Source of the DNA: Phycisphaeraceae bacterium
Lineage (GTDB): Bacteria > Planctomycetota > Phycisphaerae > Phycisphaerales > UBA1924
Direction: 5' to 3'
NCBI GenBank assembly: GCA_021297895.1
Contig: JAJTHN010000004.1
Coordinates: 1 to 64,000 of the forward strand
Length of the DNA: 64,000 nucleotides
Below the pieces are notes generated by a model. That model did no database searches and was not told where the DNA came from. It saw nothing but the letters and a program-made list of their open reading frames with translations. Positions 1 to 3,000 of this stretch are shown piece after piece. A program made the translations under genes and the position numbers. How positions within the stretch are numbered: the stretch's first letter is position 1; each line of letters begins with the position of its first letter.

Positions 1-3000
1 CCTGCCCCCCCTGCCGCTTCCGCGCCCACGGCTACCGATGATGCGCCGCCGTTTCGATACACCGCCGCGCTGGCCAATCGGATCGAGGCGCGCTGGCAGG
101 ACGCTTGGGATGCCGCGCGGACGTTTCAGACTCCTAACCCCGGCGAGCCCGGCTTCGATGGCTCGCGGCCGAAGAAGTTCATCCTCGACATGTTCCCGTA
201 TCCATCGGGCGCGGGGCTGCACGTCGGCCACCCGCTGGGCTACATCGCCACCGACATCTTCGCGCGCTACCTCCGCATGACCGGGCACAACGTCCTGCAC
301 GCCATGGGCTTCGATGCCTTCGGCCTGCCCGCCGAGCAGTACGCCGTGCAGACCAACACCCACCCGCGCGTGACCACCGAGGCCAACATCGCGACCATGC
401 GCCGGCAGCTCCGGCGGCTGGGCCTTGGCCACGATCCGCGCCGCGGCGTGAGCACCACCGATGAGGCGTTCTACAAGTGGACGCAGTGGATCTTCCTGCA
501 GATCTACCAGAGCTGGTACGACCCCGAGGCCCCCGCGCGCGACGGCGTCGGCAAGGGCCGCGCCCGACCGATCGCCGAGCTCATCCGCGACTACGACCAC
601 GGCCGACGCAGGATCCCCGGCGATGATCGCCCCTGGTCGCAGGTGCCCGAGGAGATCCGCCGCCGCGTGATCGACTCGCACCGCCTGGCGTACCTGGCCG
701 AGGTGCCGGTGAACTGGTGCCCGATGCTCGGCACCGTGCTGGCCAACGAGGAGGTCACCAGCGAAGGCCGCAGCGAACGCGGCGACTACCCGGTGTACAA
801 GCGCCCGCTCAAGCAGTGGATGCTGCGGATCACCGCGTACGCCGAGCGGCTCATCGATGACCTGAACATGGTCGACTGGCCCGAGAGCGTCAAGCTGCTG
901 CAGCGGAACTGGATCGGCCGCAGCGAGGGCGCGTACGTGGACTTCGCGTGCGCCAACCGGCGCATCCGCGTGTTCACCACGCGCCCCGACACGCTCTTCG
1001 GCGCGACGTTTCTGGTGCTGGCGCCCGACCACCCGATGGTCGATGAGCTGGCCGGCGAGAAGTACACCGGCAGCCCCAGCGAGCCGGCGCGCGTCGCGGT
1101 GTTCGACGGCGCGCACGAGCTGACCGAGCGCGGCGCCGGCCCGCGCGCCGTCATCGCCGCGTACCGCGAGCTGGTCCGCCGCAAGGCCGAGAGCGCCGCC
1201 GAGCAGGGCGAGGGCGCCGAGAAGACGGGCGTGTTCATCGGCGCGTACGCCATCAACCCCGCCACGCAGCAGCGCGTGCCGGTGTTCATCGCCGACTATG
1301 TGATGATGGGCTACGGCACCGGCGCGATCATGGCCGTCCCCGCGCACGATGAGCGCGACTTCGCCTTCGCCGACCGCTTCGGCCTGCCCGTCCGCTGCGT
1401 CGTGCGCCCCGCCGACAACGAGCCGGGCGTGAACGCCGAGGCGGTGCTGGCCGGGCGCGAGTGCTTCAGCGGCGCGGGCGTCGCGATGAACTCCCCCGCG
1501 CCGGGCAGCCCCAAGAGCGCACTGGACATCAACGGGCTGGCGATGGAACAGGCCAAGAAGCGCATCACCGTCGGCCTTCAGGCCGCGGGCTTCGGCGAGG
1601 CGCACACGACCTACAAGCTGCGCGACTGGCTCTTCAGCCGTCAGCGCTACTGGGGCGAGCCGTTCCCGATCGTCTTCGATGAGCAGGGCCACGCCCACGC
1701 GCTGCCCGAGCGCATGCTCCCGGTGGTGCTGCCGAAGATGGACAACTTCCAGCCCGAGGCGAGCACCGATCCCGATGCACCGCCGCGTCCGCCGCTGGCC
1801 CGGGCCCAGGAGTGGGCGAGCGTCGAACTGGATCTGGGCGATGGCCGCGGCACGCGGCGTTTCACGCGCGAGACCAACACCATGCCCAACTGGGCCGGCT
1901 CGTGCTGGTACTACCTGCGCTACCTCGATCCGGAGAACGCCGGCGCGTTCGTCGGCAAGGAGGCCGAGGCGTACTGGATGCTGGGTAGGTCGGCACTCCG
2001 TGCCGACTCTTCGTCTTCGCCTTTGGACCGCTCTTCTTTCTCGCCCTCGTCAGTCCTGTCCGCCGCGTTCACCGCGCGCAACTTCCAGGGGCGGGATCCT
2101 TACCCGCCGGGCCAGTACGGGATCGCGTCGGAAGTTCTCTCCTGGGGACGGCGCCTTCCGCATCTGGAAATGGCGGGCGCGACGTACTTTGTGACGTGGC
2201 GAGTCGTCGAGGGTGATCGCCTGACAGAGCGGGAGCGGGATGCCGTTCTTGCAGCGATCAGGCACTTTCATGGCCAGCGGCACGAGACCTATGTCGCGTG
2301 TGTGATGCCCGATCATGTTCACTGGATTGTCCGCCCCCTCGGGGAGCACCGCCTTCGTGACCTGATCGCGAGTGTCAAGAAGTTCTCGGCGACGGCGGTG
2401 AACGACTCGCGCAAGGCGTCCGGCAGTCTTTGGCAGCCCGATGCGTTTGATCACATCATTCGCGATGAGTCCGCGCTCCGCGACTTCATTCGCTATGTTG
2501 TTCGGAATCCCGTCGAGGGCGCCGTCGTGAGCGACCCCGATACCTATGCCTGGACATTCCTCGGCGAAGGGATCGTCGAAGTCCAGAAGCGATCGGAAGT
2601 CGGCCGCGGCAGTGGATCGAGCGAAAGCGTCGGCACGGAGTGCCGACCTACTCATGGTGTCGATCTCTACGTCGGCGGCGTCGAGCACGCCGTGCTCCAC
2701 CTGCTCTACGCCCGCTTCTGGCACAAGGTCCTCTTCGACCTCGGCCAAGTCAGCACCCCCGAGCCCTTCGGCCGACTCTTCAACCAGGGGTACATCCAGG
2801 CCTTCGCCTACCGCGACATCCGCGGCATGTACGTGCCCGCGGAAGAAGTCGTCGAGCGCGATCAGGAGGTCCACGTCGACATCGACCGCCTCGAGCTCTC
2901 CTCCGGCGAGGGCGAGCCCGTTCAGCGCGTGACCCGGTTCTTCTGGAACGACCAGCCCGTCTTCCAGGAATACGGCAAGATGGGCAAGAGCCTCAAGAAC

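Follow-up and report, generated by a model that had tools for sequence, protein, structure and literature searches.

The DNA analysed here, referred to as the window, is a stretch of 64,000 nucleotides at the start of a contig (C16:1-64000) in the genome of a Phycisphaeraceae bacterium of the order Phycisphaerales (GCA_021297895.1; G000 in the following), which is assembled in 84 contigs and 97% complete. Positions 1..3675 of the forward strand form a single open frame of 1224 codons that runs off the contig start, with the start codon beyond the contig edge and the stop codon at 3673-3675. The whole frame encodes a bacterial leucyl-tRNA synthetase (LeuRS, gene leuS; TIGR00396, 877 bits against a cut-off of 548, NCBIfam), and codons 661-886 of this gene are a complete element, inserted in frame, in which two repetitive extragenic palindromes (REPs) enclose a REP-associated tyrosine transposase (RAYT). 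A preliminary description of this DNA had proposed such a unit within leuS, bracketed by exact 23-nt inverted REPs and with LeuRS domains in frame on both sides, and all of this was borne out: the REPs lie at 1985-2007 (+) and 2629-2651 (-), the block at 1981..2658 comprises 226 codons, is open throughout and, scanned alone, matched the family REP_Tyr_transpos (NF047646) with 87.2 bits (cut-off 80, NCBIfam), and a Pfam scan placed the LeuRS editing, class I catalytic and anticodon-binding domains around it, all domains of a bacterial LeuRS being present in one frame. The features of the locus are as follows.

1..1980, + strand: N-terminal part of leuS with Rossmann half 1 and the CP1 editing domain, up to ...AEAYWM (TIGR00396, PF13603, PF00133; open frame)
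1981..2658, + strand: 226 codons in frame, made up of the REP-RAYT-REP element and residues of the loop (LG ... HG) (open frame)
1985..2007, + strand: left REP, GTAGGTCGGCACTCCGTGCCGAC, GTAG tag plus hairpin, translated within GRSALRADS (pattern search)
2008..2154, + strand: linker with an RDPYPPGxYG motif, which is common to clade A embedded elements
2155..2559, + strand: RAYT domain, a Y1/HUH transposase that lacks its own stop codon (NF047646; 4er8 profile and fold)
2314-2322, + strand: HUH motif, here HVH, conserved among embedded copies
2494-2496, + strand: catalytic tyrosine, conserved among embedded copies
2560..2628, + strand: C-terminal linker (comparison of embedded elements)
2629..2651, - strand: right REP, exact inverted copy of the left REP, CTAC tag outermost (pattern search)
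2659..3675, + strand: C-terminal part of leuS in the same frame, with VDLYVGG..., KMGKS and the anticodon-binding domain (TIGR00396, PF08264)

The insert and its site in LeuRS

The RAYT frame runs stop-free from leuS through both REPs and back into leuS. The REPs are of the GTAG type, and a relaxed REP pattern matched the window solely at their two positions; shuffles of the window gave 0.07 matches on average and none of 100 shuffles reached two. Within the whole protein NF047646 scored 83 bits against its cut-off of 80. The transposase domain matched PDB entry 4er8, the RAYT-REP complex of E. coli, by sequence profile (E=9e-12), and when the domain alone was modelled with AlphaFold2 (pLDDT 95.7), 4er8 was also the best PDB match of the model (TM 0.81). 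The element, about 0.67 kb in length, has the HUH motif and catalytic tyrosine, the family assignment, the fold and the inverted GTAG-tagged REP hairpins of a RAYT (also named TnpA-REP); an independent gene with its own start and stop it is not. Although its REPs lie in frame, they enclose a full transposase, which sets it apart from an element of the Rickettsia palindromic element (RPE) type without transposase. Its third-position GC (GC3) of 0.72, against 0.93 in leuS, marks it as a compositional stranger. A search of G000 for a second RAYT found none, the insert being the sole RAYT of this genome; five further copies of the window REP were detected there at <=1 mismatch (reversed control pattern: 0), and a clear in-frame placement inside genes was not found for these copies.

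The insert separates YWM, which ends at 1980, from VDLYVGG, which starts at 2659. The preliminary description had regarded these motifs as normal neighbours, which is wrong for this lineage: in LeuRS of relatives they are separated by a variable loop of 3-29 residues, and judging from this comparison the element is located in a naturally tolerant loop. Nor is the insertion specific to this genome, since comparison of the relatives' LeuRS revealed an element at the same position in a second genome, G137. The suggestion that a second leuS compensates found no support either, a search of the 97%-complete G000 assembly having yielded this one leuS and no other. Lone palindromic REP-like inserts were seen, in frame, in the same LeuRS loop (YWM to VDLYLGG) at loci L045 and L102; they are possible footprints or starting points of a full element.

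Embedded elements within and outside the family

A chimera search of 40 relatives found RAYTs inside other LeuRS genes and inside genes for valyl-tRNA synthetase (ValRS), and after this a RAYT profile was run against 163 genomes of the family. The matches separated cleanly: all those above about 130 bits, barring contig-edge cases, were in open frames of 363-1689 codons, and weaker matches were mostly free-standing open reading frames (ORFs) of about 170-300 codons. The loci were fetched and the flanking host sequence was classified by BLASTP and Pfam. Host domains on both sides were required for a RAYT to count as embedded, a long open frame alone being insufficient, and free-standing RAYTs that end long, meaningless frames of GC-rich DNA without a host domain were excluded (L130-L134; L169, L170, L172-L174; L275, L279, L280). 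No host was assigned to L120 and L121, and contig ends truncate L062, L119 and others. By this procedure 69 embedded elements with an identified host were obtained from 59 of the 163 genomes: 31 in ValRS, 19 in RdgB/HAM1, 16 in LeuRS and one each in MiaA, DnaK and Kbl. Of the LeuRS elements, 14 lie close to the entry of the CP1 editing domain and 2 (in G000 and G137) at the site seen in the window. Nine genomes have two or three elements together, always in different host genes. When the NCBIfam RAYT model was used instead of our own profile, the matches again fell into two classes, embedded and free-standing, about 42 of about 128 above the cut-off lying in long host frames by our own count. 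In the surveyed sequences, elements of the same subfamily hold fixed loop positions in a few housekeeping genes.

Five members of a second, different Y1 family (YGTWLHGD... type) all reside in the ValRS loop that the elements above occupy (L171 in G143, L165 in G154, L166 in G110, L167 in G002 and L168 in G046) and are bounded by the REP peptides NEPRPSGSG and PLPHGRGS. The free-standing relatives of this family are short ORFs, several with internal stops.

Embedded copies were also found in other families of the order (G027, G039, G208, G328, G333 and G342), all in ValRS, and in other phyla, where hosts were identified by Pfam with host domains on both sides. The latter hosts, which hold more distant RAYTs, include AlaRS, IleRS, RecG, PriA, PurH, CarB, a FAD/FMN bifunctional oxidoreductase and methylase proteins of the Eco57I, type ISP and DUF1156 types; for a FabA-like dehydratase, its two halves support the assignment as host. 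Among the carriers are Planctomycetota, Verrucomicrobiota, Desulfobacterota and Acidobacteriota, and one of them is an isolate, Desulfoferrobacter suflitae DRH4 (Desulfobacterota). Nine Verrucomicrobia loci (L215, L217, L238, L239, L244, L246, L249, L254 and L260) have an in-frame RAYT at one position of RecG, preceding the helicase motif ...VGTHALL. RAYTs were also seen in or beside DNA methylase or DUF1156 proteins of restriction or defence systems, DRH4 included (L207, L212, L213, L247, L251, L255, L261, L266-L269, L272 and L273), and in L262 (G623) the RAYT lies between the FAD-binding and the FMN-oxidoreductase domain, the natural domain boundary of a bifunctional enzyme.

This recurrence bears on the question of whether the locus was misassembled, or whether its leuS is a pseudogene for which a further copy stands in. 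That leuS lies at the very start of its contig, in an assembly of 84 contigs, invites such a suspicion, but both junctions are internal to the contig, a rescuing leuS was not found in the genome, the same anatomy occurs in one- or two-contig assemblies (G094, G125, G208 and G039) and the embedded RAYT of DRH4 comes from an isolate. Since 69 comparable elements are present in 59 genomes of the family, single-contig assemblies included, we consider an artefact or a rescued pseudogene extremely improbable.

The distribution of the elements in conserved essential genes, at the same codon position, patchy and with lateral transfer, is intein-like and would also be compatible with a removal of the insert after transcription or translation, as an unrecognised intein, an intron or a processed segment, so that the mature LeuRS is normal. 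However, an Rfam search of positions 1500-3200 for a group I/II intron or an IStron gave no match at E<=1, Pfam and NCBIfam scans of the whole ORF gave no splicing (HINT) domain, and an RNA intron would need neither an open frame nor a placement in a loop. Because neither an intron nor a splicing domain was found, tolerance in loops is the simplest account, and removal of the insert appears improbable.

Elsewhere in the window, a short tandem repeat (ctgaccctgctg...) was noticed at 6860-6915 within a predicted minus-strand protein.

REP ends, selection and inheritance

A palindromic REP at either end, the two in inverted orientation and with outermost tags GTGG, GTAG, GTAC or similar, delimits nearly all identified embedded elements of the family. 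These ends are matched within each element but vary from one element to the next: 55 distinct REPs were counted among 63, and REP identity amounted to 0.85 within an element, 0.52 between elements and 0.59 between elements that share a host gene. In other RAYTs the GTAG tag guides cleavage beside the hairpin in vitro and altered tags alter the cleavage dinucleotide (PMC8266576); the tag variation among the embedded elements is of the same kind. Paired REPs are not, as a first impression had it, confined to embedded RAYTs: close free-standing kin have them as well (L179-L181, L211, L214).

All 71 elements are free of stops across the core in the RAYT frame, as compared to 0 and 1 of 71 for the other sense frames and 20 for one antisense frame. 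All strong RAYT matches share strand and reading frame with their host gene and lack a stop of their own, and therefore the RAYT would be producible solely as part of the host polypeptide. The stop-free frame leuS-RAYT-leuS likewise agrees with the earlier suggestion of a synthetase-transposase chimera, provided that it is expressed. Of the embedded copies that could be read, 72 of 73 retain the HUH motif and 71 of 72 the tyrosine, and dN/dS of the RAYT in close pairs was 0.08-0.32 where it could be estimated, mostly 0.1-0.3, similar to the values of the host enzymes. A neutral accident, that is, a dead or dying element that landed in frame in a tolerant loop and has no further significance, could be reconciled with the natural variability and tolerance of the LeuRS loop, but it is largely refuted by the survey, which found such elements repeatedly, in numerous genomes and hosts, with their catalytic sites intact, matched ends and dN/dS far below 1; we hold it to be very improbable.

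In a tree of the RAYTs the elements group by host gene, the host label changing 13 times where shuffled labels give 42 changes. Rare jumps are seen to MiaA, Kbl, DnaK and the LeuRS site of the window, and clade A has entered ValRS separately. Species of genus g83 differ in whether their ValRS holds an element; well-supported branches of the ValRS host tree force at least 5 occupancy changes, and the empty loops are all equal in length. Closely related ValRS hosts of g83 hold different element lineages, and three transposase lineages use one ValRS loop. The elements L117 and L118 are nearly identical (dS 0.011) in ValRS hosts that have diverged (dS 0.53), and the identical tract extends roughly 30 codons into the downstream host sequence. 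Furthermore, occupied alleles of g83 mostly have ...WPES[AT]P ahead of the insert, and ...[PV]ESRPK or a similar motif was present in the empty alleles inspected. The shared tract and the flanking motif look like co-conversion, in which an occupied allele is spread by recombination.

Whether the insert is selfish or domesticated had been left undecided in the preliminary description, and the alternatives can now be narrowed. A RAYT recruited for a cellular job, for example binding of REP hairpins in DNA or mRNA or regulation of tRNA charging, and kept by selection on the host would explain the purifying selection, the retained catalytic residues and a partial vertical co-divergence with the host; moreover, TnpA-REP has been termed a domesticated transposase (PMC8266576). 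Such a role is hard to reconcile with the patchy presence among close relatives, with hosts that have no common function (ValRS, RdgB, DnaK, PurH, RecG, methylases), with transposase lineages that replace one another at a single site and with REP ends that vary between elements yet stay matched within each. Because occupancy is patchy, alleles appear to be transferred laterally and the REP ends are matched and element-specific, a still-mobile selfish element is favoured and a domesticated domain is considered unlikely.

Proposed lifestyle and its significance

In sum, the best explanation, to which we assign a probability of roughly 0.7, is an autonomous REPtron that has an essential gene as its home and is translated there as a guest domain. 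The chimera would be translated and would fold into a LeuRS from which the HUH domain is set apart by flexible linkers, both parts working unspliced. The RAYT would still recognise its own REP hairpins and may move the element, or isolated REPs, in the form of single-stranded DNA, in the manner of TnpA-REP/IS200 enzymes. Homologous recombination in the conserved flanking host sequence, with co-conversion, would be the main way in which occupied alleles spread between lineages, and jumps to new genes would be rare. Residence in an essential gene would provide steady expression and would make imprecise deletion lethal, an outcome that would be intein-like but reached via tolerance rather than splicing. 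A more far-reaching proposal is that an active transposon class is normally housed in essential proteins: REPtrons that are unspliced and co-translated, reach one and the same codon position by homing (in ValRS, LeuRS, RdgB, RecG, AlaRS and others), through HUH-driven transfer of single strands, replace one another there and are kept in many bacterial phyla since a cell that loses the insert imprecisely dies. This proposal is tentative and, in our estimate, falls somewhat short of even odds.

Several findings weigh against the guest-domain explanation. The structural modelling of the chimera that had been suggested was successful for the RAYT part alone; the AlphaFold model of the whole chimera was poor (pTM 0.39), with confidence confined to its RAYT part, and lends no structural support to a tolerance of the insert by LeuRS. 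The window REP is present in 12 of the 163 genomes of the family, some of which are without a RAYT of this subfamily, and thus the pairing of REP and RAYT is loose; a strict one-to-one link of this REP with its RAYT was not found. In G018, a close relative by its LeuRS, 13 copies of the window REP were counted and a RAYT of this subfamily was not detected; it may have been lost or lie within an assembly gap. Host and RAYT distances are weakly correlated (Mantel r 0.36, 0.37 and 0.19), so that the elements may in large part be inherited vertically and be little mobile at present. Neither a target duplication nor a target motif was established for the elements, and most of the surveyed genomes are metagenome-assembled genomes.

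The element is a REPtron by family and new by lifestyle. With known REPtrons (RAYT / TnpA-REP genes; PMC2817692, PMC3733652, PMC8266576) it shares the transposase family NF047646, the 4er8 fold, HUH motif and tyrosine, and the GTAG/GTGG-tagged inverted REP hairpins, but these are described as free-standing genes, whereas the RAYT of the embedded elements has no stop of its own and is read within an essential enzyme. REPs in frame inside genes, including genes for tRNA synthetases and repair proteins, have been described, as have the RPEs of Rickettsia (PMC3733652). These are likewise short palindromes in the frame of protein genes, and the lone REP-like inserts in the LeuRS loop of relatives are similar; they are, however, short and without transposase, unlike the whole transposase under purifying selection embedded here. 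Inteins with homing endonucleases are also in frame, occupy conserved positions of essential genes in a patchy manner, place a nuclease inside a host protein and give evidence of lateral allele transfer. They differ in that the embedded elements occupy permissive loops instead of requiring excision, no splicing domain having been found, and in that these elements have, as nuclease, an HUH/Tyr single-strand transposase whose DNA ends are palindromic. The ShiLan element (PMC11855218) is unspliced, has no internal stops in the host frame and sits intein-like in a methylase gene, but it encodes a phage HNH endonuclease out of the host frame, in contrast to an HUH transposase in frame in chromosomal housekeeping genes. 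In a large survey of TnpA-Y1 proteins, unexpectedly long proteins were discarded as gene fusions or annotation errors (PMC6006769). Among open-licence papers, none was found that describes complete REP-RAYT-REP elements residing in frame inside essential genes.

A transposon that enters an essential gene is expected to be purged. The transposase family described here appears to be resident in such genes, at a few recurring positions, in unrelated housekeeping enzymes and in several phyla, and annotation or curation that drops over-long transposase matches may have hidden this lifestyle. The elements supply many natural domain-insertion sites, accepted in vivo, in aminoacyl-tRNA synthetases and other enzymes. 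Embedding would be a second route, beside inteins, by which a nuclease gene can occupy an essential gene, and it offers a concrete answer to the question, open in the REP field, of how low-copy RAYTs are expressed and kept.
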